A stretch of DNA of 64,000 nucleotides from Asparagopsis taxiformis (taxonomy: Eukaryota; Rhodophyta; Florideophyceae; Bonnemaisoniales; Bonnemaisoniaceae), in NCBI GenBank assembly GCA_030407315.1, contig JALQPE010001717.1, positions 1-64,000 on the forward strand. Reading direction: 5' to 3'. The translations under genes were made by a program, and so were the position numbers. Positions within the stretch are counted from its first letter, which is position 1. Every line of letters starts with the position of its first letter. This document shows positions 9,090 through 64,000 of this stretch, in pieces. The notes below the pieces were generated by a model. The model saw nothing but the letters and a program-made list of their open reading frames with translations, had not been told where the DNA came from and made no database searches.

Positions 9090-9613
9090 CTCTAGAACTT
9101 ATACTCCCTCGTACTAACTTCCCTGCATCCAACTATCAGTAAAGCTCCCGCACAATTACTATAGTCGTATACTACACACCATTCCAATATTTATCTTCAC
9201 ATTAACACTATGCCCCTTATTTCCTCTCAAGTCCACTCCACCAGACAGTGTTGTGAACCAATGCACGGTACTACCCGCAGACAATACAATTTGCTATCTA
9301 CACTTCTGTCTACAGATTTCCCCAGACAGTGCAGTAATACAATACAATGCACTGCCTCAGACAGTAAAATGTACTGTCTGCACATACTGTCTGGCGGCAA
9401 CACTTCCGGACAGTAAAATTTACTGTTCTGGACAGTAAATTTTACTGTTTTTGGTACTGTCCAGATTTCGTGCCAGTTTATTGCTGCAGCAGTATTCTGA
9501 AATTTCCAGACAGTAAATTTTACTGTCTCCGCGCACTGTCTTGGCCAGACAGTAATTTTTACTGTCTCAGACAGTAAATTACTGTCTTTTTCCATTCCAA
9601 CACCGTAGTGTTT
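9090..9613. repeat. Left ~0.5-kb direct repeat flanking cassette A
   Basis: This segment matches 19985-20509 in the same orientation at roughly 93-95% over its last 400 bp. It ends at 'caacaccgtagtgttt' in both copies. It is packed with small palindromes made of ACAGTAAA and TTTACTGT (for example 'gacagtaaattttactgtc'), mostly starting with CAGACAG. The dioxygenase-like frame at 9655 runs open from inside the end of this repeat. The arrangement is LTR-like, but the 5' boundary is diffuse and I could not find a target-site duplication. Confidence 0.85.
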
Positions 9614-9654
9614 GCGGTGAAGAAGGCATTGTTGGAAAACTTGGGGTTATTGTT

Positions 9655-10461
9655 ATGGAAGGCCTGTTGGCATCGTCCACGGCTGGTAATGCGACGCATG
9701 AGTTGTTCGGACACTTCGCTAGGCAGTTCCCGCTGGTTGAGGAGGTTGAAAAACCCTCCCAGCAGTCTGATTCTAACGATGACGACAGGGAGCCACAGGA
9801 CGAGCCGCCAGCTTTCGCAAAGCCCGGCTTCGATCCTTCGCCGTGGCAGTTCATCCACAACGTGGGTGATGCGAAGGACCGCATGGATGGTGGTCGTGGG
9901 CGCCTCACTCTGCCGCGGCGTGAGTTGTGCGACAAGTTGGAGGAGGAAAATTTGGATATGTATAAGAACAAGTTAGTGGCAGAGCTTGCTCTTGGTGTTT
10001 GTGCGGAGTTTCTCAAGCTGGGAATGGAGGGTGAGGATCCTGTCTTCTTCCCGAAGACAGGATTGCGGCTGCTTCTTACAGCAGATGGGGCTGCGGACCA
10101 GGATGGGCACACGGACTTCAAGGTAACGACGAATAGTGTTGGAAGTCCTACCAAGTCTCCATCATATTTCATGATGTCGAGCGGAGCCGATGGGTTCTTT
10201 ATAGTAGTTGCCCCTTATAGTCATGTATGCCTGGTCAATCCGGACGCCGATATGTGGAAGGTTCCCCCTCTCACCTTTTGGGTGCCACCCTATTCCGTAT
10301 TGGTTGGTCGCGGTGACCTTTACCATTACGGGGTCGGCTTCAGCCGAGGAGATCTTCCTGCAGGCGAGAAGTTAGTCTATGGCCTGCCCACGCGCGGCCA
10401 CATCTACTTCAAGACGGAGAAGGACGTCCTCACGGACCACATCCACACCGTCGAATATTAA
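9655..10461 (+). CDS. 2OG-Fe(II) dioxygenase-like protein, N-terminally short (cassette A)
   Basis: The 268-residue ORF matches the C-terminal quarter of the protein at 51859-55470. It shares an acidic lead, then FPKTGLRLLLT, then a double-stranded beta-helix. The candidate iron ligands are the HTD triad (His152, Asp154) and His224 in GRGDLYHYG, and an arginine at about 248 (LPTRGH) could bind 2-oxoglutarate. The ParB-like and zinc-cluster parts of the cassette B protein are absent. The frame is open upstream of ATG 9655 into the direct repeat, so this may be a 5'-truncated copy expressed from the repeat, or a single-domain version. It is convergent with the methyltransferase fusion downstream. 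Substrate unknown: DNA base or protein. Confidence 0.65.
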   Translation: MEGLLASSTAGNATHELFGHFARQFPLVEEVEKPSQQSDSNDDDREPQDEPPAFAKPGFDPSPWQFIHNVGDAKDRMDGGRGRLTLPRRELCDKLEEENLDMYKNKLVAELALGVCAEFLKLGMEGEDPVFFPKTGLRLLLTADGAADQDGHTDFKVTTNSVGSPTKSPSYFMMSSGADGFFIVVAPYSHVCLVNPDADMWKVPPLTFWVPPYSVLVGRGDLYHYGVGFSRGDLPAGEKLVYGLPTRGHIYFKTEKDVLTDHIHTVEY

Positions 10462-10969
10462 AAGTACGATAGGAGCAATAGATAGCATACCAGAAGTATT
10501 AAAACCTATACTACTGTTCCCTGCTAAAAAGTTCTGTCTTTCTCATCTCAACATTGTTATCTTAGCCCACTTTTCGGTTTTCATCTATACATCTGGCCTT
10601 CATCTCATAGTTTAGTGCTACTCAGCAGATTGCTTGCTACTTTTTAATATTAGTCGACAACGTTGTATGATTTTACTAGCTAGGCCGTAGGGGGAGACTA
10701 GTTTCAACCCTTAACAACGCGCACATTTCGACTACGAGAGTCGTCACTGTGATAAATTATTGGTAGAATTTTCGTCTATCTTCCCACCTACACTAGGCTA
10801 CCTATATATATACAGGATACAGGGTATACCCTGAACAGAGACCACGTGAGGTAAAATACTCCTGAGAGCTGCTCACAGCCGTACAGACCTTTGCTGAGCA
10901 ATTTTCCCGACTTCACACTTCGCTTCTCACCTTTACTAAGATGGGAGAACGACGAAACTCCCTGCTGCT

Positions 10970-11430
10970 TACAGCCGAAGCCGTTTACCAGGGTTCCTTA
11001 CAGCAAAGTCATCGTTACGATGACTTTGCTGTAAGAAAAGAAAACATTACAGCAGCCACGATTTCTTTACCGGTAAAAAAATTGTGGCCGCTGTAATGAT
11101 TTGCTTTCTTACAGCAAAGTCATCGTAACGATGACTTTGCTGTAAGGAACCGTTTCCTTGCAGTGGCCAAAGAATTTTTTACCGGGTAAAAAATCAGCAA
11201 GAATTTTTACCGGGTAAAAAATTGTGGCCGCTGTAATGATTTGCTTTCTTACAGCAAAGTCATCGTTACGATGACTTTGCTGTAAGAAAGCAAATCATTA
11301 CAGCGGCCACAATTTTTTTACCCGGTAAAGAAATCGTGGCTGCTGTAATGATTTGTTTTCTTACAGCAAAGTCATCGTAACGATGACTTTGCTGTCAGCA
11401 ACCCGCCGGAACTGCCAAAGCTGTAAGCAT
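10970..11430. mobile_element. Palindromic fold-back element, copy 4
   Basis: Outer arms 'cttacagccgaagccgttta' and 'aactgccaaagctgtaag' enclose four 38-bp palindromes at about 10997-11035, 11108-11146, 11248-11286 and 11360-11397. They alternate with GGCCAC...TTTACCGGTAAA...GTGGCC palindromes, each bounded by CATTACAG and CTGTAATG. It belongs to the same family as the elements at 0.4-3.7 kb. Confidence 0.8.
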
Positions 11431-11960
11431 TCTGGCTTCACCCTCTCCCCCATTTCTCTACTCCGCCTTCATCATCCCAGCTTCTCTGGTGACGACTGAC
11501 GCCTTTCGTTTCCCCCCTCACGCCCCCTCTCGCAATGAAATACTCGTCTATTACCACGATAGTCTACTCGTACTGCCGCCTTAATTTTTCCTCTACACAC
11601 ACCCTCCCATCCGTCTCTTCCGTACTACGATCCTAGGCTATCCTACCTTATGATAATAGTTGTATAGTGAGTAGCTAGAGTCCTACTTACTGAAGACTAT
11701 AGTGCACCGGAACCGGCGCCGGTTCCCGCCCGGGCGGGTTAAATATATATTTTATGCCGTGAGGCACAGGTACCATATGGTCGCTGTGGCTCACGGCACA
11801 AGGAGTAGATTTTGCCACCAACAGCCGTCCAAACCATCCTCTCGTGATTTTCGCGACTTCACACTTCGCTTCTCACGTGAGACAGCAGGGAGTTTCGTCC
11901 TTTTCCCATCTTGGTAAAGGTACCTTTACCAAGATGGGAGAAGGACGAGACTCACTGCTG
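11430..11960. repeat. Reverse-oriented ~1.05-kb repeat relics and a zero-spacer palindrome
   Basis: 11430-11650 is related, in reverse orientation, to the repeat units at 0.15-2.4 kb ('ctacgatcctaggctatcct'). At 11884-11959 two ~38-bp arms meet at GGT/ACC (11921/11922) with about three mismatches ('cccatcttggtaaaggt' and complement). No gene is visible in this stretch. Confidence 0.6.
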
Positions 11961-12170
11961 CTTACAGCCGAAGCCGTTTACCAGGGTTCCTTACAGCAAA
12001 GTCATCGTTACGATGACTTTGCTGTAAGAAAAGAAAACATTACAGCAGCCACGATTTCTTTACCGGGTAAAAGAATTGTGGCCGCTGTAATGATTTGTTT
12101 TCTTACAGCAAAGTCATCGTAACGATGACTTTGCTGTCAGCATCCCCGGTAAACGGCCCGCACTGTAATG
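11960..12170. mobile_element. Palindromic fold-back element, copy 5
   Basis: It has the same outer arm as copy 4 and two 38-bp palindromes at about 11990-12028 and 12102-12139, with a CATTACAG...TACCGGGTAAA...CTGTAATG palindrome between. The right outer arm is degraded ('ggtaaacggcccgcactgta'). Confidence 0.75.
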
Positions 12171-12444
12171 GGGTGACTGCTTCTCCTACATCGCTCTCTT
12201 ACTGGTGTTCTACATGCTGCGTTGCTACACAATTTCTCACTCACATCTTTCTAGTTTCTCTCCTTTTCGTATCCATAGGTAAAGCAGTAGAAAAGTGGAT
12301 AGTTTGCACTCCAGGCCGCAGATGCCTTCCTGCAGTCATGTCACGATTGTTGTAGTCTAGTCTATAATATCTAGCGCTCTTGCAAGATGATGCACAGTCT
12401 ATTGTCTCTGCCAATGCGTGTTTACTCAAATCTATCAAAGTAGC

Positions 12445-15400
12445 TCAGTTAGCTGGCCAATATTTTCTACCATAGTCGGCAAATATCTCCTCATCAGCTT
12501 CAACGTCTCTGGTCAGAATGACCTTGACAGCATGGGGATTCTTGATATTTGAAGCAAAGTCCGGTTTGTCTATGGCATCGCCTTGTCGAAACTCGGCTGA
12601 CTGTGTTCGACTCACCTCGGTCGCTTTCTCCGTTCCGTCAATGACCCGACAATCATTGAGGTAGCTGGTACAATTATAGACCGCTGGAACGAGCCAAACC
12701 TTCCGAACAGGTGCACCCCTCCCTATGTACGTGGTTTCCAATTCCATGTTGTAGTACTGGAACCTCTCTCCTGTGCACCCAAATCCTTCCGGGCCGTACA
12801 TCACTGATCTCTGCGGTTCCGAGTCTCGAATCTTCGCATAGAAAATCGTCCCGTTGTACCAGCCAATGACCGTCCCCTTCTTCAGTTTCTTCGCCGCGAA
12901 TACGCCAAACCCACCACCTCTTACCTCCGATTGCGAAACATAGACACCGTAGAATGCGGCATCAGCAGCCAGAATCGCGTCCGGGTCTATGCTCCAAAAC
13001 GAGTGCATGTCCTCGGCAGGCCACTGGTCCATAGGCACCCCGCTCAATCTGTGAAGCATAGACCCGTCCTTCTTCATTGACGCAACGAACACAAGCAGAT
13101 GGTTCGGCAATGCTGTCACAGCAGGGAATCCTTCTGGTGCATCTGAGATGTGCTTCTGACGAAGCCTTGGAGCTTTTCCTGTGACCGGTACCGACTCGTC
13201 CCCAAGAATACTCTCCACCTCACGCTGCAAGATCCCCCCATATCGCCCGGCTTTCACCTCACTGACGAAAGCATGCAGTATCCACTCCTGCGATGCATCG
13301 TGGCACCTTTTTTCCTTCTCACACCCAATGAACCGACGATACGTACCATCCCTCAACGTCATACACGCTATGGCTGTGCTGTACGTTCCCGAGAAGAAAT
13401 CCATCACGATATCGTTCTGCTTCGAAAATCGTTCCAGAAGCTCACGAAGAGTGGTCAACGCCTTCTGCTCATGGCGCAGTCGGTTGTTCTGCCCATCATA
13501 TTGAGCTTCACCAGCCGACAACCTCGGAACGTTGTCAATCGCGTTGGTGAACCCAGGGTGCCTCGATATGTCCGGATTGTGCAACCTGTAATCCACCATA
13601 TCGTACGCAGCCATACCCTTCCCCCGCTTATACGCATGGATAACGAAATCGTGCATATTATGCAGTGTGCACGTTTTCGTCGATGGATTGGACGTAAAGC
13701 TGTGTGGTCGGCGAGATAGCACGACTGGAACACTGTCCACAATCATCTTGCCAGGCTCGGCATTTCTGATTGCATCCATCCATGCCACGAGTTGGCGCAC
13801 GCTGGAATAGATTAGAGCATGACCGCCAGGCCGAAGAACTCGAACTATTTCACACGCAACACTCGCCAACTCTTCCGGCTCCAGAATATCGTACTCCGAG
13901 TTTTCTCTGCCGCCTTCCCGCCTCGTGTTGAATGGAGGATCAGTGAGCACAAGCTGAACACTGTCCTCCAACACGCCATCTTCCAGGAAACTAATTTTGT
14001 CCTCCACCTCTTTGGCTACATCAGTGGCGTCACAATTCACAGTGTGAATGTAACGCCCCATCACAGCTTCCAGCTTGGTGACATATTCTGGCTTGGATTC
14101 CTTTCCGACGTCAACGAGCGGTGCTTCTGTAGGCGATACAGTGTCAACCTCCATAGCGTCATCCTCGGCCGCACCTTCTCTTGTTGCTGTTTCGCTAGCA
14201 ACCGCCGCATTATCGTCCTCTCCAACACCGCGCTCCAGCCTAGCCTTCTTCCTCTGTGGCTCCAGACTATCCTCTTCTATATCCTCGCTGCCATTGTTTG
14301 GCACTGCTGCGGATATTTCCATCTGCGCAGGTGCACCTTCAAGGATGCCAGGCTCGGGCGTATCCTCAAGACTGTGCAACTCATCCATGGTCAGAGGAAG
14401 CTTTCGTTGCTCTCGGGTTCGCAATAACCAAGCCTTCAGCCTCCTCTGACCATCCAGGGCATGAGACGTGTTCAACTTGGCTCGCATGAACGAGTTCAAG
14501 CCGAACTTGTCAGGAGTGTCGAAAAGCAAGGCTCGAAGTCTCTGCACCAGCTGACCACGCTCGGCGAACACATTCACCTCAGTGACACATTGGCGTATCG
14601 ACAGCAGGAAGGCGCTTGTCAATGATCGCAGCCTTGCATCCACAGCCACTGGAAGGTCGGCACAGAACCCGTTTTCACTGTCTACAGTTTTCGGGACAAT
14701 GATCAGGTTTTTCCGATGCTCCTCGACCGCGCAGCCATCAGACCGATTCGAGAGTGACCTGAAGCAAAGGCTCGCAGGATCGAATACCATGAACGGCCAG
14801 CACATCGATTCAACATCCTCATACCCCAACACTCTTGCCCCGGTATCCCACGCAGCTAACACACGGTCGACAACAAATCCAAGCTGGTTGGCTTGCGCAC
14901 TGGATGTTGCAATTCCAACCATTCCACCACCACCAATGGCCCCGGATGTGGCTCTGGCCCGCCTAGATGGCACACTGCCCATCTCCTTACTGCGAATAGC
15001 CAAGATACACTGGCACATCATAACCATCAGCCTCCTGAACCGCTTCTGGCTAGCCTGCAAAGAATCTTGCATGTCGGATGTAGCGCCGTCCAGAAAGTAC
15101 CTGCTCGAAAGCAGTTCACGGTTCAGTGGAAAGGACAATTCTCCGCGGGGTGTCTTGCCAAACATTTCGACGGCACGAGAACTAGTCACCCCCACCTGTT
15201 TCGGAAACTCAACCATCCTCGGAGAATCACCCATCTCTGCATTGAGTCCCCATGCATGACAAAACATTTGCCACAGACGCAAATCAATCGCACTCGAATC
15301 TTCTGCTCGGTGATACGGCCGAAGCACAGCCAGAATAGACATGCATGAGCTGTACTGCGGTTTACCACTCAGGCTTGAAGCAATTTGGCCGCTTGGATCG

Positions 15401-15912
15401 CAGGATTTGATCCAGCCCAACACATCAGCCATCCTCACAGACGAAATGTGAGCGTACTTGTCCTTTCCGTTTTGGACCCAGTACTCGTCTCTGAGATCAA
15501 CGGCGATCATCAGATACTCAACAAACATCATGCGCCTTTGCAGGCCTGCAATGTCGTTGGATGTCGTCGCTCTCACACGGTCCAGCACAACAGCAGTACT
15601 GCTGTTGGTGTCCGCCACGATAGACTCTTCTCGCATAGGAATCGTAACGCCAGGAGGAAAGACGCCCCTCTCCATTCCACGTACAATTGCCATGCAGCGG
15701 TGCGCTCCATCCAATATCTCCAGAACGCCTTCTCGAAACCTGCCAGTCACGGGATGAGCTGTGTCATAGCCGCTGTTGCGAATGCTCTCCATGAGCGCTT
15801 CCACATGACTTGCATCAACATCGCGAATCGATACGAATTTGCTGACTTGATTGGGGTCGATGAACACCCATCCGTCGTGCTTTTCACCGTGATTGTGGAA
15901 CGTTCCTTCCAT
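12445..15912 (-). CDS. ParB-like + DNA methyltransferase + SET fusion protein (cassette A)
   Basis: About 1155 residues without a visible intron. I use ATG 15912 rather than the TTG three codons upstream. Residues ~15-90 look like a ParB/sulfiredoxin-fold domain with DGAHRC at 68-73. A long helical middle follows, then an acidic, KKAR-containing linker. The methyltransferase spans ~650-890, with LTDPPFNTRR (motif IV, ~657) before MDFFSGTYST (motif I-like, ~836), the order of beta-class N6-adenine/N4-cytosine enzymes. The last ~160 residues resemble a SET domain: GGGFGVFAAKKLKKGTVIGW, YLND and a terminal EEIFADYGRKYW. I infer a nuclear enzyme that marks both DNA and protein, but substrates are unknown. 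It is divergent from gene 3 (16426) and convergent with the dioxygenase ORF. The long opposite-strand ORFs are shadows. Confidence 0.8.
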   Translation of the reverse strand: MEGTFHNHGEKHDGWVFIDPNQVSKFVSIRDVDASHVEALMESIRNSGYDTAHPVTGRFREGVLEILDGAHRCMAIVRGMERGVFPPGVTIPMREESIVADTNSSTAVVLDRVRATTSNDIAGLQRRMMFVEYLMIAVDLRDEYWVQNGKDKYAHISSVRMADVLGWIKSCDPSGQIASSLSGKPQYSSCMSILAVLRPYHRAEDSSAIDLRLWQMFCHAWGLNAEMGDSPRMVEFPKQVGVTSSRAVEMFGKTPRGELSFPLNRELLSSRYFLDGATSDMQDSLQASQKRFRRLMVMMCQCILAIRSKEMGSVPSRRARATSGAIGGGGMVGIATSSAQANQLGFVVDRVLAAWDTGARVLGYEDVESMCWPFMVFDPASLCFRSLSNRSDGCAVEEHRKNLIIVPKTVDSENGFCADLPVAVDARLRSLTSAFLLSIRQCVTEVNVFAERGQLVQRLRALLFDTPDKFGLNSFMRAKLNTSHALDGQRRLKAWLLRTREQRKLPLTMDELHSLEDTPEPGILEGAPAQMEISAAVPNNGSEDIEEDSLEPQRKKARLERGVGEDDNAAVASETATREGAAEDDAMEVDTVSPTEAPLVDVGKESKPEYVTKLEAVMGRYIHTVNCDATDVAKEVEDKISFLEDGVLEDSVQLVLTDPPFNTRREGGRENSEYDILEPEELASVACEIVRVLRPGGHALIYSSVRQLVAWMDAIRNAEPGKMIVDSVPVVLSRRPHSFTSNPSTKTCTLHNMHDFVIHAYKRGKGMAAYDMVDYRLHNPDISRHPGFTNAIDNVPRLSAGEAQYDGQNNRLRHEQKALTTLRELLERFSKQNDIVMDFFSGTYSTAIACMTLRDGTYRRFIGCEKEKRCHDASQEWILHAFVSEVKAGRYGGILQREVESILGDESVPVTGKAPRLRQKHISDAPEGFPAVTALPNHLLVFVASMKKDGSMLHRLSGVPMDQWPAEDMHSFWSIDPDAILAADAAFYGVYVSQSEVRGGGFGVFAAKKLKKGTVIGWYNGTIFYAKIRDSEPQRSVMYGPEGFGCTGERFQYYNMELETTYIGRGAPVRKVWLVPAVYNCTSYLNDCRVIDGTEKATEVSRTQSAEFRQGDAIDKPDFASNIKNPHAVKVILTRDVEADEEIFADYGRKYWPAN

Positions 15913-16425
15913 GGCGAACAAAGATAGAGTTTTTAAGAAAGGGATAGTTGGTTGCTGCTTGACCAGGGTGGCGCAAAGCAGAAGTTGGTTGTTTAAAACA
16001 AAGTGTCAGCGAGTGGTAGCACTTCGGTGGCTGTTTCCTTTCCACCCCTGTCCGAACCTTTACAAGATAACTACATCGACTGTTAGCTCAATAATCAATG
16101 TAATACTAAAGTAATACTCAAAATATTTTTCCATGCAATTTATTGGGCCCCGTAACATCTCTAAACGTATCTTTGTAGTCCAATCGTATGCATCCGACAT
16201 TCACTTCTAGAACGATTATTCACATCAAATTTTATGCTGCAATCAGTTCATGGCAGACATCATCCACACTGACGTGTCAATTTTGTCAATTGTCCATTCT
16301 ATTTCTACACCACCTAAACATCTCTTCTCGACCTTTCCAATCCTCCTAGTATATACTACTCTTTAGCAGAAGGTAACGGTTAGGCTTTCACTAATACAAC
16401 AATTCTATCCCATAGCTATCCCAAC

Positions 16426-17418
16426 ATGCTTCCTCTCGCTCCAAACGACGTTATAGAAGTTCAATGGGAACTTCGGCCGTTTGGGAGGAAACGAAAAATT
16501 GTCTGGTGGTCTGCAATCGTCAAGGAAATTACTCAGGTCAAGACTGAAACAGACCCATTCCTCCATGCATTGCTCGAATACAAAACTGAATATGGTTTCG
16601 ACTCTACCCTTTCTCAAGTCAAGATTTCAGATCGTAACGAGCTCGTCGACAAGGATTCCGGAAGGGTTCTCCCGTGGCGAAGTGGTGAGCTTCGCAGTAT
16701 GGACTCACCTCCATCCCCAGCAGAGAGAGACCCAGACTACGGCATTGACCACACTCGCCACCGCCACCGCGGCATCCTTCAAGATTGCACTGCGGATCAA
16801 ATGAAGAAGACCGTAGCAGAAATGCTGGCAAGATTGGAAAAGCTGGAGTCAGCTGCCAAAAATCCTCTACCCCCTCCATTCGATTCCAACAGTTCCATGA
16901 CCTCCTCTGCTCTGACTGTATGTAGCATTCTGTTTCAGAAGCTTGGTGTGTACACAGACAAGCCCCTCTCCCTCCGGATGACGAAATCCGAGCACTCCAG
17001 GGGAATGCGACAAACATCGCAAGAAGAAATCAGAGTACAGGCTGACTGCTCCCTTGCTCAATTCCGCACTATTGCCATTCAATGCAAGGCGAAAGAGAAT
17101 CGTGACGTTCTCTTCCAGCCGTCCTTTGAGGACATCACCTTTCCCTCTGGAAATGAGTCGGATCTTTCCATCATTTTCCCCACCTTTCAGGCACTATGTG
17201 ACTCCATAGGTACCTCGCAACACGGGTTCCAGAAAATATTGGTGAAGAGCAGGGCGGAACGCGATGGAGGAAGCTCATCGATTGTCCGAATTTTAGGAAA
17301 TCTAGTCGACGTTGATTGCTCTCATGATGCTCCTTCTTCCGTATTTCTCGTCGGCTCATCTGCTTACGTCCTGTCCAGCCCAGACCAACGTATGACAGTT
17401 CTTTGCAGAGACTCCTAG
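16426..17418 (+). CDS. Gene 3: Tudor-like/coiled-coil protein (cassette A)
   Basis: A 330-residue ORF from ATG 16426. Residues ~8-90 (VIEVQWELRPFG, WWSAIVKEI, VLPWRSGEL) look like a small beta-barrel reader such as a Tudor-like fold; that is inference. Residues ~125-145 (MKKTVAEMLARLEKLES) form a short coiled coil. The C-terminal part (FQALCDSIG, RILGNLVDVD, APSSVFLVGSSAYVLSS) matches the protein at 63027-64000 (FAAVSDLLG, RLLGALLCTE, DPSSVAIGSSSFCVSG). It is divergent from the methyltransferase fusion (~0.5 kb apart) and convergent with gene 4. The paralogue continues about 100 residues beyond the end of this one, so this copy may be shortened. Function unknown. Confidence 0.7.
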   Translation: MLPLAPNDVIEVQWELRPFGRKRKIVWWSAIVKEITQVKTETDPFLHALLEYKTEYGFDSTLSQVKISDRNELVDKDSGRVLPWRSGELRSMDSPPSPAERDPDYGIDHTRHRHRGILQDCTADQMKKTVAEMLARLEKLESAAKNPLPPPFDSNSSMTSSALTVCSILFQKLGVYTDKPLSLRMTKSEHSRGMRQTSQEEIRVQADCSLAQFRTIAIQCKAKENRDVLFQPSFEDITFPSGNESDLSIIFPTFQALCDSIGTSQHGFQKILVKSRAERDGGSSSIVRILGNLVDVDCSHDAPSSVFLVGSSAYVLSSPDQRMTVLCRDS

Positions 17419-18062
17419 GAGTTTGACCACGTCAACAATACATTTTTACAGCCCCTATGTCTTAGCCAACTATCACAGTCTAGCATCGTGGACTCTTTCC
17501 ACCTACGTGATAAGGCTACTGTTACTTATGGAGCAACGTTTTCGTTACTGTGGAGACGTATTCAGCGCCGAGCTTGTTACAGCACTTTCCAGCCTCTATC
17601 AACCGCAGAGACGTTTGGTACACTACATCTACGCTTACCTTGCTGTATTTTCAGTGGTACTACTACATGCCAGGAGCTTGAAGACATTGGCTATGAGGCT
17701 ATCTCTCGTCTTGGCTTCAATGCGGATTCAGACACTACCCACCCTCCCTCTCCTCCACCTGCCACCTGCAGTCCGGAGCAAAAATGATAAAGCACACCTA
17801 TCCGTAGTTATCCTGTTCCTGGGTATTCCATTCTAGAGCTCCTGTGGCCATCAATTTCTAGTAAAGACGGATACCCTCGCCCCTTCCTACTTCGACTATT
17901 CCACTACCTGTCTCTGCGCTTTTCCTTCGACTTGACACTATCGTCTGACTGGTTTCCTGATGTCTCGTATCTATCTACTTCCATCTATTACAAAATTCAA
18001 CTCAACAGAAATTTTATTTCTTCATTCTTCGTCTACTATACCGAAACCGGTTTCATCCGATA
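17419..18062. other. Intergenic stretch between convergent genes 3 and 4
   Basis: Pyrimidine-rich sequence with no supported gene. It must hold the 3' ends and terminators of both convergent genes, but I see no clear poly(A) signal to assign. Confidence 0.5.
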
Positions 18063-19589: not shown

Positions 19590-19984
19590 GTTGAACTTGC
19601 AATTGGAGTTTGCTAAAAGGAGAAGTGCTTTGAAGGAAGGGTGTCACGCTTAGTACAGCAGTGTTGTAGCAAATATCATTCCAGTGGATGCATCCATCCT
19701 GTTCTACTCTACATAATAATAATGCTTCTCGGTGCTCCGTAACGGTTATTTTTCATAATTTAGTGGTGGATGGTGCGTATTCTTTCCTTTGCTACCACCC
19801 ACGTCCTGTGAATACCACACCTCGCTACCAGACTGACGTCTCCTACTCGACACTTTCAATGCAAAGATAGATAGGTATAATTTGAAATGCTAAACTCAAC
19901 ATAATATAGTCTACTCTGTACTTTCTCTCCTTACGGTGAGACAAACGAGATATGTTCAATCTTCCCTATCTTTCTTTCTACAAC

Positions 19985-20509
19985 GTCCTATTCAGCATCT
20001 AGCTTCCCCGCACCCAACTATCTGTAAAGCACCATCACAATTACTATAGTCGTATTCCACACACCATTCCAATATTTACCTTCACACTAACACTATGCTC
20101 CATATTTCCTCTAAGTCCACTCCACCAGACAGTGCTGTCAACCAATGCACGGTACTACCCGCAGACAATACAATTTGCTATCTACACTACTGTCTACAGA
20201 TTTCCCCAGACAGTGCAGTAATACAATACAATGTACTGCCTCAGACAGTAAAATGTACTGTCTGCACATACTGTCTGGCGGCAACACTTCCAGACAGTAA
20301 AATTTACTGTTCTGGACAGTAAATTTTACTGTTTTTGGTACTGTCCAGATTTCGTGCCAGTTTACTGCTGCAGCAGTATTCTGAAATTTCCAGACAGTAA
20401 ATTTTACTGTCTCCGCGCACTGTCTTGGCCAGACAGTAATTTTTACTGTCTCAGACAGTAAATTTACTGTCTTTTTTCATTCCCAACACCGTAGTGTTTA
20501 CAAACCACC
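19985..20509. repeat. Right ~0.5-kb direct repeat flanking cassette A
   Basis: Same orientation and structure as 9090-9613, with the same series of ACAGTAAA/TTTACTGT palindromes. It ends at 'accgtagtgttt' before 'acaaaccacc'. The two copies and the DNA between span about 11.4 kb. It could supply the promoter for gene 4, which starts about 0.4 kb inside it. Confidence 0.85.
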
Positions 20510-25315: not shown

Positions 25316-25399
25316 AACAGTAACGGGGTCACGAACGGGAGCAGTAATGTAGAAAAGGTGGCGCAGGGGAATTATGTCGAGGAAATCGCAGAGGCGGTC

Positions 25400-26300: not shown

Positions 26301-26331
26301 TCGGCAGACGCCTCTCTTCGCTTCTCTTCAT

Positions 26332-34543: not shown

Positions 34544-34549
34544 GTTAGT

Positions 34550-55470: not shown

Positions 55471-55542
55471 GGTTGGGATCGCAAGGAGGGTCGAATAGCT
55501 GACGATTGAAACGGTACCAGAGTAACGCGGTATGCCTTTCAA

Positions 55543-56010
55543 GTAGCAGGGGAGTACTAATCAGCTAGCCAGCGAGGGACAATGTATTAACAACAAATTT
55601 GTTCAACTGGAAGGACACCAAAACTGTGCGTAAAAATTCAGACCGCGCGAGCGGTTTCTATTGGCGCATGGTCCAACCTGAATCGAATAAACGGTCATAG
55701 CGCCAGTTCGAATAAAAATGTTAATTTCGGTAATTTTGCAATCTCGAAAAGTTACCGAACTACATACACCTTTCATGACTCGTATATTATCAATAAGAAA
55801 AGAAGAAATGGAAACTGACTCTATCTCAGCAAGTATTAATACAACGGAAGTAGTCCTGAACCATTCATGACTTGTTCCAGTTAGTCAATGTTCTTCAGAC
55901 ATGTGCCGGATGCAGCTACACGAACCGTTTATTGAGCCTCACACCCTTTTATTTCTCCTACCTACCTTTTCCGCGCAGTGCTGAAGTGTCAGTATCTTTT
56001 TGTTCTCGTT
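55543..56010. other. Stretch upstream of the dioxygenase gene
   Basis: AT-rich, no gene. It should contain the promoter of the minus-strand dioxygenase gene. The word 'ggtaattttgcaatctcgaa' near 55733 resembles the repeat ends nearby. Confidence 0.4.
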
Positions 56011-56230
56011 AGATATAACGGTTCTCAGGTGTGCCTTGGCACTGCTCCCTACGACCAGAACACCTCCACAGCGCCTTTTCCGTAGATGATAAAATTTGGT
56101 AATTTTTTGGGCTCCAAAAATTACTCGAGTAAAAACTGATCTAGCTCCCGACAAAGACTAGATCAGTTTTTACTCGAGTAATTTTTGGAGCCCAAAAAAT
56201 TACCAAATTTTATCATCTCCCAAATCGTCC
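56010..56230. mobile_element. Repeat with 133-bp fold-back, copy 1
   Basis: 'tctcaggtgtgccttggcac' to 'cctccacagcgcc' is followed by a near-perfect palindrome at 56085-56217 with ~60-bp arms (GATGATAAAATTTGGTAATT...; internal TACTCGAGTA) around a ~13-bp loop. A second copy starts about 410 bp downstream. Confidence 0.85.
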
Positions 56231-56401
56231 GTTCTGACCACCATGGCAGCCTTTCTGCTCGCCACCAAACCCACTCCACCACTCTCTACGTCTTCATCTA
56301 CCTATCTGAACCGACCTCAATACACCTCACTCCGCGTCTTTGTGTGCCCGTCCGGCTATCATTTACTGTTCTACCATTTTTTGAAAGCTGGGCCGAAGTG
56401 A

Positions 56402-56640
56402 GCTAGAACAAAGGTTTCGGACCTCTCATACTACTCCTCAGGTGTGCCTTGGCACTGCTACCAACGACCAGAACACCTCCACAGCGCCTTTCCGTGGATG
56501 ATAAAATTTGGTAATTTTTTGGGCTCCAAAAATTACTCGAGTAAAAACTGATCTAGCTCCCGACAAAGACTAGATCAGTTTTTACTCGAGTAATTTTTGG
56601 AGCCCGAAAAATTACCAAATTTTATCATCTCCCAAATCGC
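56402..56640. mobile_element. Repeat with 133-bp fold-back, copy 2
   Basis: 56402-56500 is the inverted counterpart of 51471-51571 ('ctagaacaaaggtttcggac'). The palindrome follows at 56497-56629 with the same arms and loop as copy 1, apart from one or two bases. The 51.4 and 56.4 kb copies face each other around the dioxygenase gene. Confidence 0.85.
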
Positions 56641-56675
56641 CTGTTCGCGTTCGTTCGCTGCTGCCCGACCCATTG

Positions 56676-56752
56676 CCACTTGTGGGAAATTGCGCGCGCA
56701 ATTTACCACAAGTGGCACGTCTCGAATTATAGCGCTATAATTCGAGACGTGC
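56676..56752. repeat. Two adjacent palindromes
   Basis: 56676-56716 (GCCACTTGTGG, GCGCGCGC centre) and 56715-56752 (GCACGTCTCGAATTATAGC and complement, perfect 19-bp arms, no spacer) lie side by side ~0.45 kb upstream of the methyltransferase ATG. They could be protein-binding sites or fold-back scars. Confidence 0.8.
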
Positions 56753-57185
56753 GCCCCTTCACGCTCAATTCCATCGATCCGCTCCGGTATTAATATCATG
56801 AGAACCGTTCTAGAAGGGGTGTGGGATGTCTTCCACGAAAATTGTATTTTGCATAGACAGTGAATGAGGTGTGAACGGGTGGAAGCAGTGTATTAGCCAG
56901 CTTAGAGTCCTCCGCAGTAGACCCCGATTTCACTAATACGATACTTCCAACCGTTCAGTTCGGATTCTCATAGTTTCATGGACAACCCTTGTAATGTCAG
57001 GTGCTGACATGCATGTCCTCGCGACCTCTCCATAGCACTTTACAGATTGTTCCGAGGAATGCACAAATTACGATTTCAAATTTGCGGTCCTTTTCTTACC
57101 AGCACCTCCGCTGCCACCGACGCATCGACCTCATTTCGGATTCTGCCTTCTTCTTTTCCTCTTCTATTGCTATATTCAAGGCGCG

Positions 57186-60100
57186 ATGGTTGATACAATG
57201 AAACATGGGGCTGTTATCTCTGCAAGCGAGCGTGGCCCCACCAATCCAGGGGACTTGTATGGAGACGGAACTATCATATGGGTAGATCCAGCTCGTGTTG
57301 TTTCTATACCAGCAATTGAAGGTTTTGGTACTGCAGCTTCAGACATTTCTTCCCGAGTGTCTCTGGACTTTGATGCACTCCATCTTTACGGATCTATCAC
57401 TGAAAATGGTGATGTCACCCTTGTCGGAGGCATGGACGTCTGTGAGGAGATCTGGTCGCGCCCCCGCACGAAAACTTCACGGTTTTTAGTACGCATGAGC
57501 TACGAGTCTATCTCTTCAGAGCCACACACACTGATCTCTATTGTTTATCACATCCTCAGGAGAGAAAGACGGGTTCCCTTCACTGAATCAGTTGCCATAC
57601 TTGCATACCTTCGTGACTACTGGCATGATCGGGAGAGGAATGAGGATAACGTTCCCCTTGCACATCGCACCCTCCCAGGATTTCGAGCTGCTGTCAAGGC
57701 CATGTTCCAATCAAAGCTTCCGCCTGCGGCAGTCGCTGTCATGGAAGATTGGTTTGGGAAGGCCTACCATCGTCATACCTTCAATATCGTCCAGTCCCTC
57801 CGCACTTTCTCGTCTTCGGAATGCGATGAGGGGTCTAACGACGTAGACACGAGGGTTTGGGATATGTTCCTGACCAGTTGTTCCTTACAAGACTTATCAA
57901 TGTCTCTCTTCACGCCAGTGTTCGTTGTAGAAGAGCACAGAACAACCACAAAGTTACCATCCAGCCAAAGCCTCCACAGCCAAGGTTCGGAACCTCTTCC
58001 CGTTGCACAGTATTTCCACTCAGTGCACACGGCGTCTCGGTCTTCAATTGGTCGTGAATCATTCGTGCGGCAGACTCTGGCTTGCCAATTCTTTGTTGCG
58101 CATACCCAGCTACGAACTACGGACCATGGAAACTGGGCTACTCCAAGAGTTTCTTCCGCTTTCGAGAAGATTATATTTCTCATGGCTATGCTACAAATGG
58201 AAAGAGATTTAAAAGCCACCCCGGTGAGGCCGAGAACAAGGTCCTCGTCTAATCGAACTGTATTGATCAGAAAGGAATCTCCTGCTTCCGCTCAGCGCCT
58301 CGGCTACGCTATTCATGTGGTCGTGAAGGCATGGGATACACTGGCTCGTGCACTGGATGTTTCAACGGCCGAGGAACTTCTCCAACCTTATCTTCTTTAT
58401 GATCAGCGCATGTTCAAGTACCATGTGCTAGACTCAGAGGAAAGGGGGTTCTCTCCTCTTCGAGAGCTAAAGACGTTATTGCATGGCAGAGGGGCCGTGC
58501 GAAAGTTGCAGCATGCCAAAAGTATATCCCATCGAGCAGTTCATCGCTCCGTCCTCCAAGACGCTCAGATGCGCCTCTGCGCCTCCTCCTTCTGGGCACA
58601 CATTACAGATATTACTAAGGATCGAAAACTATTTGACCAGACCGTTTCTTCTCCGAAACAAAACGCGTTTCTTTGCGCATTCGAAGCACAGGAAGATTCT
58701 ATAGAAACTGATTCTGGGAGGTTCACTTCTATTCCTGGCCTTCAAAACGTCGAGAGGCAGCTCACGGCCTTCAGAAACTCTGAACTACCACAATCGACTC
58801 CTGAACCAAACGAGGAGCTTTTTGGAGAAGCTGATACATCTTTCGCTCCCGTTCCTGCGTCACCATCCATTGAACAAAACACGGATACAGGTGTCAAACG
58901 GAAGCGACTGGACAACAGTAATGAAACTGATGTTCCTGCAAAGTCAGCTCGCACTTCTGAGCCGGTGAGCGCTCATAGAAGGCCATCAGACACAAGTACT
59001 GCCGAGTCCTTAGACATCGAATCTATGCGTCTCGGAGACCCTGTTTCAATTCCAGCAAACCTACAAAACATGAAGGCTTCTTGCCTACACACACTCAATT
59101 GCAGTTTCAGAGATCTTCTTGAGACCTATGAACGCATTGATATTCCTGCAAAACCGGAGCTTGTAGAGGGTGCCCAATTGGTTCTCACAGATCCACCGTA
59201 TAATTCGAGACGAACAGCTGGGAGAGAGAATTCAGCGTATGACATTCTCCGCCAACAAGAAATCGTGGACACAGTGGCAACTATCGCAAAGGTAACACGA
59301 CAGGGTGGTCATGTTCTCATCTTCACATCTGCTGCCCTTTTCTACAACTGGGTTTACGAACTCCGAAAGGTCAAGACTTCTACGAACACTCCCATGTTTT
59401 CAGTTGATTCACAGCCTATCTTCTGTATTCGGAGCCCAACGCATTTCACTTCTCCGCCATATAGATTTACGACCAGTTTAATGAATATGTCTGAGCTGGT
59501 TGTACATGCTACAAAGCTCGGAAAGGGAAGAAAAGGATGGGCGATGGTGAACTATAAAAATGCCGGTTACATCCCAACCAGATTCCGAGCATGGACAAAT
59601 ATTATCGACAACATTCCAAGGATATCGCCTTCAGAGACTGTCAAATATTTCGACCAAACGGAACAGAAGAACAAGGTACTGCGCCCGGAGCAGAAGCTCG
59701 TTGGTTTGTTGCAGGAACTAATTGGGCGATTTTCACACCAGGGAGATTTGGTTGTCGACTTGTTCGCCGGAACATTCTCCACTGCAGTCGCTTGCCTTAA
59801 CATGCGCCACGGTCAGTATAGGCGGTTTGTCGGTTGTGAAAAGTACAAAGATTGCTTTGAATTATCTCTTCCGAGAGTTCATACTGCATTTCTGCGTCAA
59901 GTAGCAATTGGTAATTTTGCTCAGCTCTCCAATCCTTCGCTACAACAACTCGCCTCATCACATCTACCGGTTTCCGAGGAGGGTACGGTTTCAAAGCCTA
60001 CCTCAGGTTTGCCAGTTGCTACGCGACTTCCGCCCCACCTCGTCAGTTTCCTCACTAGCATGTGGGGTATCCCAGACCAATACAAACAACTGGGCGACCT

Positions 60101-60683
60101 TCCAGTTCACAAATGGCCTCAATCACTTCTCGGCATGCTGTCCACCATTGACAACAATCTTCTGCTTTCCATTGATGCCATGGCACACAACGTGTACGTC
60201 GCGCCCTCAACTATTCCGGGGGCTGGTGACGGTCTTTTTGCCAGAGGCCAGATCGACCCTGGTGACATTGTTGGATTTTATTTCGGTTCATTGGTTTACA
60301 GAGATCTCTATAAATCAAAAGGCAAGACGTTTGGAACAGGTCCCACCGCATTTACCGTGGAGCGCTTCAGAAGCTACGCTCTTCAAATCAAGGATTCGAA
60401 TATATCTTGTTTGCTTCCTTCTACTGCTGGAAGCCCCATATTTGTCGTCCCTTTCGAGTACTGTGTCGCTTCGAAAATCAATGACCCCAACTTTGTGGAT
60501 CCAGCTGAGGGAACTGAACGTCCTTCACGCGCAGCTAACGTTAGTTTCTCGTCTCCCGTTCAAGAGCTCCTCGACGAGAATACTGTCTCAAACTATCAAG
60601 TTGTCTGTGTTACTGCCAACGTGCCGATCTCTGCTGGCTCCGAGCTGTTCATAGAATATGGTAATGACTACTTCTCAGTTTAA
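57186..60683 (+). CDS. ParB-like + DNA methyltransferase + SET fusion protein (cassette B)
   Basis: 1165 residues from ATG 57186, collinear with the cassette A protein. The N-terminal ParB-like region is degenerate: the DGxHR signature is replaced by VGGMDVCEE near residue 80. The middle helical region is shared (VWDMFLTSC, VVKAWDTLARALDV). The methyltransferase has LTDPPYNSRRTAGREN (motif IV, DPPY at ~669) and VVDLFAGTFSTAVAC (motif I-like, ~858), an intact beta-class arrangement. The SET-like end (from ~1005) has PGAGDGLFARGQIDPGDIVG and ELFIEYGNDYF. So the catalytic DNA motif is canonical here while the ParB-like site is lost, the reverse of copy A (DPPF, DGAHR kept). It is followed in the same direction by gene 4. 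Confidence 0.8.
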   Translation: MVDTMKHGAVISASERGPTNPGDLYGDGTIIWVDPARVVSIPAIEGFGTAASDISSRVSLDFDALHLYGSITENGDVTLVGGMDVCEEIWSRPRTKTSRFLVRMSYESISSEPHTLISIVYHILRRERRVPFTESVAILAYLRDYWHDRERNEDNVPLAHRTLPGFRAAVKAMFQSKLPPAAVAVMEDWFGKAYHRHTFNIVQSLRTFSSSECDEGSNDVDTRVWDMFLTSCSLQDLSMSLFTPVFVVEEHRTTTKLPSSQSLHSQGSEPLPVAQYFHSVHTASRSSIGRESFVRQTLACQFFVAHTQLRTTDHGNWATPRVSSAFEKIIFLMAMLQMERDLKATPVRPRTRSSSNRTVLIRKESPASAQRLGYAIHVVVKAWDTLARALDVSTAEELLQPYLLYDQRMFKYHVLDSEERGFSPLRELKTLLHGRGAVRKLQHAKSISHRAVHRSVLQDAQMRLCASSFWAHITDITKDRKLFDQTVSSPKQNAFLCAFEAQEDSIETDSGRFTSIPGLQNVERQLTAFRNSELPQSTPEPNEELFGEADTSFAPVPASPSIEQNTDTGVKRKRLDNSNETDVPAKSARTSEPVSAHRRPSDTSTAESLDIESMRLGDPVSIPANLQNMKASCLHTLNCSFRDLLETYERIDIPAKPELVEGAQLVLTDPPYNSRRTAGRENSAYDILRQQEIVDTVATIAKVTRQGGHVLIFTSAALFYNWVYELRKVKTSTNTPMFSVDSQPIFCIRSPTHFTSPPYRFTTSLMNMSELVVHATKLGKGRKGWAMVNYKNAGYIPTRFRAWTNIIDNIPRISPSETVKYFDQTEQKNKVLRPEQKLVGLLQELIGRFSHQGDLVVDLFAGTFSTAVACLNMRHGQYRRFVGCEKYKDCFELSLPRVHTAFLRQVAIGNFAQLSNPSLQQLASSHLPVSEEGTVSKPTSGLPVATRLPPHLVSFLTSMWGIPDQYKQLGDLPVHKWPQSLLGMLSTIDNNLLLSIDAMAHNVYVAPSTIPGAGDGLFARGQIDPGDIVGFYFGSLVYRDLYKSKGKTFGTGPTAFTVERFRSYALQIKDSNISCLLPSTAGSPIFVVPFEYCVASKINDPNFVDPAEGTERPSRAANVSFSSPVQELLDENTVSNYQVVCVTANVPISAGSELFIEYGNDYFSV

Positions 60684-61226
60684 ACAGGAACGCATTGGCG
60701 TTTTTCACACCTACATCATGTTCTCCCTGCTTCCCATTACCCCGCAAATAGTAAAATAGGCAAAGTATGTTCTATCTCCTCATTCCCTCTAACATCCGCG
60801 ATGATTAGGTGCATTTCTTTCCCGTGAACAGGACGAGGACCTGATCTACCTAATGTTCAGGTCTAGATCTCTTTTTACTCGAGTAATTTTCCCGTCCGAA
60901 ATTATGCATAATTTAAACAGTTATTGTACCACACCATTTATTTAGATCTACGACCGTTACGGCACGGTGCATTCGTAACGGTTCCACAGCCTCCTTTATC
61001 TCTTCCTACTTCTACAAATTGAATAGGTCGGTTACAACACGTAGCATTTGTAACGTTTCGATCTCTCCCCTTTCCTTCCCTTCTTCAATAAACGGACAAG
61101 TTCCGAACTTAAACAAATTACCTTTACCACCATTCTACTGGATAACTCTTCATCTTGGAATACCTGATCCCAGTAGCTCTGACGTTACGAAACATATCTG
61201 TGAAGATCTCCTTATTCCAGGCTGAC
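60684..61226. other. Intergenic stretch
   Basis: No gene. At 60870-60890 'ctttttactcgagtaatttt' matches half of the palindromes at 56.1 and 56.5 kb. A duplicated 'cggttacaacacg/gaccgttacggcacg' motif lies near 60950-61045. Confidence 0.5.
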
Positions 61227-62899
61227 ATGAGAGACGAACTATCCTTAACCAGGTTTGCGCAGTTTGAGGAACGGTTTGCCTACCTTGAACAGTACCTCCG
61301 CGATTCTCTTTCATCTGTTCAAATGGAACTAGCCTGCATTCGGTATATGGCCTCTGCTGCAGCTGGTACAAACGTTGTTCCACCTGTGGTTCTGGAAGAG
61401 CGTTCAAGAAAATCAGCACAAGTTACCACTCTGGTGTCCTCTCTTTTCAACAACAGACTTGTGACATCCAGGTTCGTCGCGTTTCGAACCATTGCAGAGT
61501 TCATCAAAACCTCTGTTACCCCAAACTCGTTCTGTGCAACATCTGTACCGTGTTCAAATGAAGATTCCTGCACTACTTTGCTTCTGGCTTCCCTTTCCTT
61601 CTCTCAGACATCCAGTTCTAATTCTGAGGTCAGGCAGTCCAAGAAATCCCTAATTGGAACAGCTGTAGGGAAAAAGCATGTGTTCCTGAAACGTGCTATT
61701 GTCGGAACTGCGTTTATTTCTATGGCAAATGACAGAATTGTGCGATGGAAGGATTCGGCGACGAGGAATTCTGGTACCCTTGACCCTGGGGAGGAGGATG
61801 ACCTGAACAGCAATACCATTTCTCGTGACTACGCACTTCGCAATGCAACCATCGTGCCAATCAATAAGCCTGCTTGGTTGCAGATTTCGCAGCGGGCTCT
61901 TTTCCATGCCATGGATATTTCGATGCCAACGGAAACAGATCGACCTGCGCCACAGTCCACAACTCTACCAATCAATTATTCGAAACGTCGCCGACTCTCG
62001 GGTTCTAAAGGAGAACAGCGCCGTACTGGTTCTTCCTCATCTTCGTCTTCTTGTGTATCTAATCTTTCTCCTTCGGACTTACAGTCCATTCCGATCGTTA
62101 CTTCGGCACTGCGGCAGCTCACACAGTTTTTCAATACTTCCCGGAAGCAGATGAAAATGGAATTAGTCAAACATGCATTCTTCCTCATCCATCGAGATAT
62201 GCAGGCTAAAGTTTCTCTTTCGCCTGACAATGACATTTCTGCATTGGATATGTGTCCATCTGAAAAAATTCCGATAACTTCGAAAGCTTACGGCACAGGG
62301 GATGAGTCTCAAGCTGTCTATTCCAAAAATGATGATATCTTCTCGGATTTTATTTTGAGTCGACCTGAGCTTCACATTCAGGTTACTTACAAAGTTCAGG
62401 TTAGCGGCGCCGTAGACGGCTCCTGCAATGCAGGTACAAAGGCCCCGGTTGAGAGATTGGCCGTCTGTTCTTTTTCTTTTCTTACATTAGCTATGATATT
62501 GTTGTGTAGTTTCTGCCAATGCACACAACTCGAGATGCTCTGTCACGAACCCCATTCAATTCAGGCATGTTATCGCATTGCAATTTGCCTGCACGGGTTA
62601 TTCACCACAGCCCTTACAATGGCGCCTACCGGTAATTTCGGGAATGATGGTTTCCCTCTGCGTGTTACATGGGGTCACATCGACCTCCGTGACTACCTCA
62701 TGGGGGTGATTGCCTTCTAGGTATTATTAGGAAGAAGAGAAACATCACTGCAGAGGAATACATGTCGGTGCGGTTCGATTCTAATGCCACACAGATGGAA
62801 CAATCCTACGAAAACCCAACAGCCAGGGTAGCATCTAATGTTCATTGTGTACCTCTAGAGGAAGATGATGAACTTGGTATTTCTTTAATTGATGTGTAG
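61227..62899 (+). pseudogene. Gene 4: coiled-coil protein (cassette B), frameshifted at the end
   Basis: Read from ATG 61227 (the TTG at 61155 is less likely). The N-terminal RFAQFEERFAYLEQYLRDSL is a coiled coil. The core VTSALRQLTQFFNTSRKQMK, VKHAFFLIHRD and IQVTYKVQVSG matches the cassette A paralogue. The main frame stops with TAG at 62718-62720. In another frame the acidic tail continues (RNITAEEYMSVRFDSNATQ, CVPLEEDDELGISLIDV) to TAG 62899, like the acidic tail of the paralogue. A 1-2 base indel near 62720 therefore cuts the tail, or a very short intron is present. Same direction as the methyltransferase fusion, convergent with gene 3. Confidence 0.6.
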
Positions 62900-63026
62900 A
62901 TTTCTGTTTACTGTTCTGCTATCTTTGCCTACGTAACCTGGCATTGTTTGCCTCTAGTTCTCAGTATACATGTGTCTCTATTAGCCTGGCAGAACCGTTT
63001 TTGCTTTATTCATTGCACTACTGGTA

Positions 63027-64000
63027 TCATTTTATGTACTCCTCTGCCCTTTTGTCTGAAAAGTTATACCCCACCACATCTTTGACTAGATCTTCCGATA
63101 TCAACTTGTCTATTCGCCATGGTTCGCCAAAACCTCGGAATACGACGTAGGGTATATGAATTCGAAATGTTCCCCACAACACATCCCCTGTCTGTCCCCT
63201 TTTCTTATGCGTTATCGGTTGCCATTCTATACGAAAACTCTTCTTCCCGTCACCTTTCCACCCTTCCCGACTCGCATCCCCGTCAGGCCTCCTATGTACG
63301 GCACAAATCGATGGGCATTTTTTCAGCTCCATGCCATGCACATATTGACCTTGGACCGCAGAACTATTCTTGCGCACTAGGCACCACGTGTTCGATTTTG
63401 CTCCGGATACGCAGAACGAGCTACTGCCAATTGCAACAGATGATGGATCTCCGTTCGTCGTTTCTGTGCACAACAATGCACCAAGCAAGCGCAAGAACAA
63501 TGGCCTCCTAGGCCGATTTCCGCTAATCACTCCCCCTTCTTCCTCTTCCGCTGCCGCTCCAGGCTTTCGTCTGTGCAGCAATGACTCCATTCGCCACGGG
63601 TGAGGTAATCCTAACAAGTCCGATACTGCTGCAAAACTGGAACATGTAATGTTCACAGCTTCAGCACCAGTTCCGCTCACTGCCTCATGAAGCCCAGGGT
63701 AAACTTTGTAATAACATCCTGCATACAACTCTGTTGTTCCCTTCAACATTTCCCGGAATACGGTTGTGCTCAATGAAGCAGGAATATGCACTGGACCACT
63801 CACAACTGTCCCACTGGTACATGCACCATCCACCTCACTATGCGGAAAATCCGTCCCGGAGTTTGACAACGTAACTCTGTTTGCCTGTTCTACAGCTTTC
63901 TCGACTGAGCGGCGCAAAAGCATCAATAGAACCGGTCCAGTGGACGTGAGTGCAGGTTCTATTGGAACTTTCCCATCGTAAACCATCCGATGATCGCCAC
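63027..64000 (-). CDS. Gene 3 paralogue (cassette B), runs off the window
   Basis: The frame is open through the ATG at 63986 to the window edge, so the N-terminal Tudor-like part probably lies outside. Visible features are a short helix (LLRRSVEKAVEQANR), then FAAVSDLLGLPHPWRMESLL, RLLGALLCTE and DPSSVAIGSSSFCVSG, which match residues ~255-325 of the cassette A protein. The C-terminal ~100 residues (RIEWQPITHKKRGQTGDVLW, FRGFGEPWRIDKLI) have no counterpart there. Convergent with gene 4, as in cassette A. Function unknown. Confidence 0.6.
   Translation of the reverse strand, partial: GDHRMVYDGKVPIEPALTSTGPVLLMLLRRSVEKAVEQANRVTLSNSGTDFPHSEVDGACTSGTVVSGPVHIPASLSTTVFREMLKGTTELYAGCYYKVYPGLHEAVSGTGAEAVNITCSSFAAVSDLLGLPHPWRMESLLHRRKPGAAAEEEEGGVISGNRPRRPLFLRLLGALLCTETTNGDPSSVAIGSSSFCVSGAKSNTWCLVRKNSSAVQGQYVHGMELKKCPSICAVHRRPDGDASREGWKGDGKKSFRIEWQPITHKKRGQTGDVLWGTFRIHIPYVVFRGFGEPWRIDKLISEDLVKDVVGYNFSDKRAEEYIK

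Follow-up and report, generated by a model that had tools for sequence, protein, structure and literature searches.

Transposons that carry one epigenetic gene, whether TET-like, SET or a VANC-type factor, are already known. Here we describe two related gene sets in a 64,000-nucleotide stretch of DNA from the red alga Asparagopsis taxiformis (contig JALQPE010001717.1, positions 1 to 64,000; referred to as the window), which probably represent related, recently amplified giant DNA transposons, elements A and B, with CAC-type inverted ends (CACTA/En-Spm-like, CMCT-type) and a chromatin toolkit as cargo. The sets contain a predicted DNA methylase-SET fusion (M), one or two ParB-like dioxygenase genes (D), two genes referred to as 3 and 4, and a transposase-like gene (tnp).

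The closest described elements are the giant En/Spm (CACTA) families of Chondrus crispus, which are 16-20 kb long and contain 4-5 open reading frames (ORFs) instead of 1-2 (Kojima et al. 2013, cited in PMC6431247). They share with A and B a red algal host, the CACTA superfamily, giant size and multiple ORFs, and A and B are therefore members of this known kind or close to it. On the summary given in the citing paper, A and B differ in spanning 25 and 21 kb with six and five genes, respectively, a comparison by size and ORF number in which the cargo may be the same. We regard A and B as a known kind of element, the giant En/Spm, with an unusual cargo.

Other parallels concern single components. 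Fungal DNA transposons bearing TET/JBP, including Plavaka and EnSpm, carry a 2-oxoglutarate (2OG) dioxygenase that is thought to counter silencing, and the HarbingerS and MuDR transposons of Phytophthora bear SET (PMC12730594). Elements A and B likewise combine a DNA transposon with a predicted 2OG dioxygenase and with a SET methyltransferase gene. The dioxygenase of A and B differs from the fungal ones in having no Tet_JBP match and a ParB-like N-terminus, with a DNA methylase-SET fusion added, while the Phytophthora elements belong to a different superfamily and the SET of A and B is fused to a predicted amino-DNA-methylase. A bacterial N6_N4 methylase joined to a eukaryotic chromatin domain, as in M, is also found in the bdelloid N4CMT, although N4CMT, as that source presents it, is a host gene with a chromodomain and is neither transposon cargo nor fused to SET (PMC8885841). 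Finally, the VANDAL elements of Arabidopsis, through VANC, are described as anti-silencing transposons (PMC10398659, PMC5735166). They are set apart from A and B by the nature of VANC, which to our knowledge belongs to none of the enzyme classes that A and B encode. As far as the literature was searched, a range outside which the original Chondrus report lies, no ParB/DNA-methylase/SET transposon has been reported.

Ends and copies of elements A and B

The initial annotation of the window, made from the letters alone, proposed that the same four-gene set occurs twice in shuffled order, and that it forms one functional unit and may be mobile-element cargo. This interpretation is supported, as identity between copies stops at inverted terminal repeats and the flanks of the copies differ. 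The repeats open with CAC and not CACTA, and read CACTACGGTGTTG in A and CACAGCATAAGCAA in B. Across the genome searched (141.5 Mb in 3,156 contigs) the exact A end was counted 629 times for the gene4 side and 892 times for the transposase side.

The most complete view of A comes from a 24,925-bp copy on another contig (C1561:75850-100774), which has the same 13-bp ends inverted at both sides. The parts of it that were read contain the gene4-side end, gene 3, M, two ParB/dioxygenase genes (D1 and D2) and a transposase-like protein of 1,288 codons; the expected place of gene 4 (76644-78923) lies outside the stretches read. Its outer flanks are unrelated and lack a target duplication, so this copy may be rearranged. 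On the gene4 side, all four other copies compared (C1561, C1728, C931 and C1833) match the window up to position 20496 and then diverge, and on the opposite side the same four have a common sequence that the window does not. Accordingly named in Table 1 as the gene4-side part, the A of the window yielded no D1 N-terminus, D2 or A transposase gene. The dioxygenase that the initial annotation assigned to cassette A is present there, but it is just the C-terminal stretch of a more extensive ParB/dioxygenase gene, truncated at 9611 where a neighboring element ends.

This neighbor is itself an A-family derivative, with CACTACGGTGTTG at 94-106 as the transposase-side end and the reverse complement of CACTACGGTGTTG at 9598-9610 as the gene4-side end. 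No A cargo genes were found in it, and it has just repeats and end sequence in common with the C1561 copy. Over 3.7 kb it is 96% identical to part of another A derivative (C192), which measures 14.5 kb between its ends; in the 9,984 bases of C192 that were read, no frame reaches 200 codons. To its left, the neighboring derivative is flanked by sequence (window 1-93) almost the same as that flanking an A-type end on its left side on C174 (2120-2200), which suggests a duplicated or allelic stretch.

Element B is present with all the genes claimed for its cassette but ends beyond the window, at contig position 65662. Of 15 B-copy loci predicted at the ends, 12 exist; among these 12, eight stopped within a few bases of 44614/44615 or about 65662 with differing flanks, one (C2793) continued into the window's own right flank, and three gave no match. 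The C2793 locus is identical to the window over B and the right flank (100% across 801 bp, 65269 to contig 66069) and is an allele, an assembly duplicate or a segmental duplication. A 17-mer made of the B end and three flanking bases occurs exactly three times in the genome, as expected if B flanks differ. The 2-bp flanks of B match in two of three independent copies (GC/GC in the window, CC/CC on C348, no match on C2079). For A, 2-bp flanks match in 3/9 end pairs paired by distance (chance P 0.015), which is weak support for a target duplication because some of the pairs may be wrong.

The transposase-like proteins of A and B are homologous, 28% identical to each other, and show a weak RAG1/Transib-like fold and a BAH-like tail. 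The B gene of the window is split between two frames, and an open relative of 1,340 aa exists that is 100% identical to its first piece. No Pfam match to a tyrosine-recombinase captain of the Starship kind was found among the ORFs scanned, and no search aimed at captains was made.

Gene content, order and linkage

The layouts given in the initial annotation for cassettes A and B were confirmed gene by gene (Table 1), as was the convergent arrangement of genes 3 and 4 in both. Its four gene families do all occur twice, but the set is larger than it stated, with five genes in B and six in A: the transposase-like gene, present in both sets, was missing from its list, and one dioxygenase per cassette holds for B while the C1561 copy of A has two. 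D1 and D2 can each be read in two overlapping frames (L030:2411-3247/3-2645 and L030:6118-8055/4835-6448). The paralogy claimed for the four families was upheld in every pair when pairwise scores were compared with 300 shuffles per pair. Scores for A against B were 216 for D (maximum of the shuffles 66), 896 for M (68), 123 for gene 4 (66) and 62 for gene 3 (49). The last is the weakest of the four; with the longer B gene 3, whose frame runs to contig position 64769, it rises to 93.2 (maximum 78, 400 shuffles). Divergence between the cassettes is strong, M being 28% identical between A and B.

With M set to the plus strand, the order in A is g4+ g3- M+ D1- D2- tnp- (compiled from the window for g4 to D1 and from C1561 for g3 to tnp), and in B it is tnp- D- M+ g4+ g3-. 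Both orders retain the convergent g4/g3 pair as a block. D and tnp are adjacent in both families in reversed order, and M switches sides relative to both. A circular permutation linking (g4 g3)(M)(D1 D2 tnp) with (tnp D)(M)(g4 g3) was ruled out because no rotation turns the A order into the B order. The shuffled order may instead reflect rearrangement of modules within a mobile lineage that retained the set and not its order.

Copies of the cargo are numerous. Counts for M and D come from the best 38-40 candidates of each search, the window included, and are lower bounds. M-B is found in at least 40 places at 96-100% identity (among those listed, 36/40 are full length or nearly so and 33/40 have no stop), and M-A in at least 40 places at 99-100%, all of those listed being full length and free of stops. 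D-B is present in whole or partial copies on at least 38 contigs, with 34/39 of the listed matches lacking a stop. The genome-wide co-localization that the initial annotation proposed to check holds for M and D of B: with all 40 M and 39 D matches kept, D-B lies divergent from M-B at a distance of 1,228-3,080 bp in 25 of the best 40 M-B places, against about 0.2 by chance. Thirteen D-B contigs have no M among the M matches listed. For M and D of B, the analysis did not show the independent scatter of the families that the same annotation named as contrary evidence, and the linkage of genes 3 and 4 is seen inside the fetched loci alone. There, 12/12 A loci are collinear with the window over M and gene 3, and 8/8 B loci over M and the first part of gene 4, the window being counted in each.

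Comparison of nonsynonymous and synonymous changes between copies (dN/dS), also proposed initially, reveals few nonsynonymous changes in M within A. The 12 A copies at the top of the list have a nonsynonymous to synonymous polymorphism ratio (pN/pS) of 0.079, a value biased low because the copies were chosen by protein score, and A copies were therefore resampled by terminus. Nineteen plus-strand A ends were hand-picked from the first 100 of the 629, with shorter-derivative pairs omitted; 3/19 ran off their contigs, and M was present at 6 of the 16 read. Among the variant codons of these six copies, compared across 388 codons, 10 are synonymous and 2 nonsynonymous (ratio 0.06; binomial P 1.6e-5, treating variants as independent); there is no stop, and 2 codon cells are gapped. 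A single copy contributes 8 of 14 variant cells, and C92, which is among the six, appears in the M-A score list as well. The other 10/16 ends have no M at the expected place, a count that is no unbiased fraction since the ends were hand-picked, and many A ends therefore belong to derivatives. Eight B copies of M, likewise taken from the top of their list, do not differ in DNA sequence.

Predicted cargo proteins

M shows a PF01555 match together with the DPP(Y/F) and F(A/S)GT motifs of the amino-DNA methylases (N6_N4_Mtase), and is predicted to be a methylase of the N6-methyladenine (6mA) or N4-methylcytosine (4mC) type. In M-A, the Pfam matches are PF01555 (2.3e-16) and PF00856 (3e-6), and the phrog matches are phrog_67 DNA methyltransferase (3.8e-23) and phrog_1033 ParB-like (0.0019). 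M-B has no ParB profile match in phrog or Pfam and no DGxHRxxA motif. The PDB sequences closest to M are the DpnA adenine methylase and SETD7. Relatives of M-B from public contigs, P0002 and P0003, are 66% and 59% identical to it, and the M-B family therefore has further subfamilies or species. Three pattern matches to M-B in viral contigs were considered, and none is a relative.

The D proteins have no Pfam family match above the cut-off but keep the HxD...H...R residues of 2OG/Fe(II) dioxygenases in D1, D2 and D-B, by which they appear to belong to that superfamily. A ParB/Srx-like domain is recognized in D-B and M-A by a phrog_1033 match and the DGxHRxxA motif. Membership in TET/JBP was rejected, with no match to Tet_JBP (PF12851) at E 10 for D-A and D-B or at E 1 for the D1 and D2 frames; the genome as a whole gave no Tet_JBP match, and the control genomes likewise gave none. 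Matches of the D-B N-terminus to DndB (E 0.12, sub-threshold) and of D2 to SNRNP27 (E 0.0037, below the cut-off) were not used. A Tudor-like N-terminus of gene 3, suspected by eye, was rejected, as it had no Pfam match and 82/400 shuffles reached its score.

Each family also has its own palindromes, those of A differing from those of B, and these may be docking or target sites. The A palindrome, taken as a 33-mer with A at its center, has 8,325 exact copies in the whole genome, whatever the element, compared with 0 for a reversed-pattern control.

Table 1. Features of elements A and B; positions are those of the window unless marked as contig positions
Feature	Position	Strand	Basis or remark
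A-family derivative element, 9,517 bp	94..9610		both A termini
Element A, gene4-side part	9611..20496		gene4-side terminus common to 4/4 other copies, flanks different
D1 (family A), C-terminal 268 codons of ParB/2OG dioxygenase	9655..10461	+	98% DNA identity to C1561 D1, 536 bases
Palindrome array ACAGCAAAGTCATCGT(A/T)ACGATGACTTTGCTGT in A	10979..12157		6 exact copies; 13 in window
M-A, ParB-like + N6_N4 DNA methylase + SET fusion, 1,158 aa	12445..15921	-	profile matches
Gene 3, family A, 330 aa	16426..17418	+	no Pfam match
Gene 4, family A, 508 aa	18063..19589	-	no Pfam match above cut-off
Gene4-side inverted terminal repeat of A	20484..20496	-	CACTACGGTGTTG read on - strand
Element B, 21,048 bp in all	44615..64000, on to contig position 65662		GC on both flanks
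Inverted terminal repeat of B	44615..44628	+	CACAGCATAAGCAA
Transposase-like gene of B	47083..51170	-	two overlapping frames, 47083-49509 and 49497-51170
D-B, ParB-like, Cys-rich region (by eye), 2OG dioxygenase, 1,227 aa	51859..55542	-	phrog_1033 5.1e-5, HLD...H...R
Two long palindromes between D-B and M-B	56108..56605		
M-B, N6_N4 DNA methylase + SET fusion, 1,165 aa	57186..60683	+	profile matches
Gene 4, family B, 521 aa	61155..62720	+	homology to A gene 4
Gene 3, family B	63027..64000, on to contig position 64769	-	homology to A gene 3

Surrounding repeats

On either side of element B there is a 166-bp stretch (34468-34633 and contig 68324-68489). The two share 97% identity, and Gypsy-type reverse transcriptase domains lie between them, which looks like an insertion of B into a Gypsy-like long terminal repeat (LTR) element. 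The apparent host is a GC-rich Gypsy-type retrotransposon (window 34468-44614 and, past B on the same contig, C1596, 65663-68489) with profiles for protease, reverse transcriptase, RNase H and integrase zinc-binding. Its 166-bp stretches are about 13.0 kb apart after B is subtracted, and long minus-strand frames lie near the right end of B at contig 65656-68103. Between the two cassettes, inverted repeat pairs at 21882-22091/29777-29986 and 20941-21059/29885-30003, 89-91% complementary and about 8-9 kb apart, look like another repeat family. The ORF at 30130-31575 (minus strand) clearly matches the Plavaka transposase profile (E 3.9e-20) and is separate from A and B; the B transposase-like piece has no meaningful similarity to it. 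A fungal host, first suggested by a Plavaka match, was rejected after the genome gave ten light-harvesting match rows, two of which come from one gene. The best of these is closest to chain 9vfj, followed by chains of 7y5e (Porphyridium) and by ACPI and CAC light-harvesting proteins (cryptophyte), which makes a red alga the most probable host and another red-plastid alga a less probable one. Matches of uL3, with plant chains at the top, did not discriminate between hosts.

Alternative explanations

It could be argued that the cassettes are segmentally duplicated host gene clusters and that the nearby transposons are coincidental. The C2793 copy, which has B and the right flank in common with the window, does indicate that segmental duplication, allelic variation or duplication in the assembly accounts for some of the copies. 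However, copies with unrelated flanks lose identity at the same place, at the terminal inverted repeats, and exact A ends are counted in the hundreds on either side, and we consider this explanation highly improbable. Just as hard to credit is the view of cassette A as a circular or LTR-type element whose borders are the 0.5-kb direct repeats that flank it (about 9117-9610 and 20003-20496, 89-98% identical). The LTR reading was rejected, since the four other A copies run past the repeat point with common sequence that the window lacks, and the left repeat belongs to a different A-family element, forming its gene4-side end.

If A and B are transposons, their cargo may still be passive, hitchhiking and decaying while selection acts on the transposase alone. 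The sampled A ends without M and the frameless stretch of the C192 derivative fit such decay, but the excess of synonymous over nonsynonymous variant codons in the six A copies that keep M does not, nor does the lack of a stop in most of the best M-B and D-B matches (both lists favoring intact copies), and a passive cargo seems decidedly improbable. It is less far-fetched, though still unlikely, that these are giant transposons whose methylase-SET and dioxygenases are directed at the host or at competing elements and not at the element itself. Phage proteins do resemble the ParB-like and DNA-methylase parts, and the elements do land in each other, as A copies adjoin B fragments: on C931, A adjoins a stretch of B gene 4 (99.5% over 831 bp, one side seen), and on C1561 the far end of A adjoins a B-like dioxygenase (70% over 363 aa). 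Against such outward action stand the same set carried by two diverged families and the palindrome arrays inside A, which differ from those of B.

Proposed mechanism and significance

We instead favor control of silencing directed by each element at itself, since the same writer and dioxygenase modules are retained in both diverged families and each family has its own palindromes. Under this proposal, A and B would be moved by a DDE-type transposase. Their toolkit would consist of the bacterial-type amino-DNA-methylase/SET fusion (with a ParB-like start in A), one or two ParB-like/2OG dioxygenases, and the products of genes 3 and 4 as partner proteins. If active, these enzymes could place marks on the DNA and histones of the element's own copies and take them off again, an activity that would keep the copies expressed or mobile despite host silencing.

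A more elaborate and rather doubtful version is that each family is a complete self-addressed epigenetic system. ParB-like domains would steer the methylase/SET writer and the dioxygenase eraser to the family's own palindrome arrays, the BAH-like tail on the transposase would act as a reader, and transposons would be a main source of a mark other than 5-methylcytosine (6mA or 4mC) in a host where no cytosine-C5 methylase was found. The search behind this last point found no C5 DNA methylase (PF00145) in the genome, while 10/14 bacterial and archaeal controls were positive; it was made exon by exon and could miss a split gene. In contrast, about 8% of the genome of another red alga, Gracilariopsis chorda, is reported to be methylated (PMC8566409).

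That a probable cut-and-paste element of 21-25 kb keeps a methylase/SET fusion and dioxygenases in two diverged, rearranged families, with the methylase conserved, suggests that a transposon benefits from writing and erasing functions combined in one toolkit. Elements A and B offer a testable case of selfish DNA as a route for amino-methylated DNA into eukaryotic chromatin, and they suggest that a jumping gene can bring its own toolkit for controlling its silencing.

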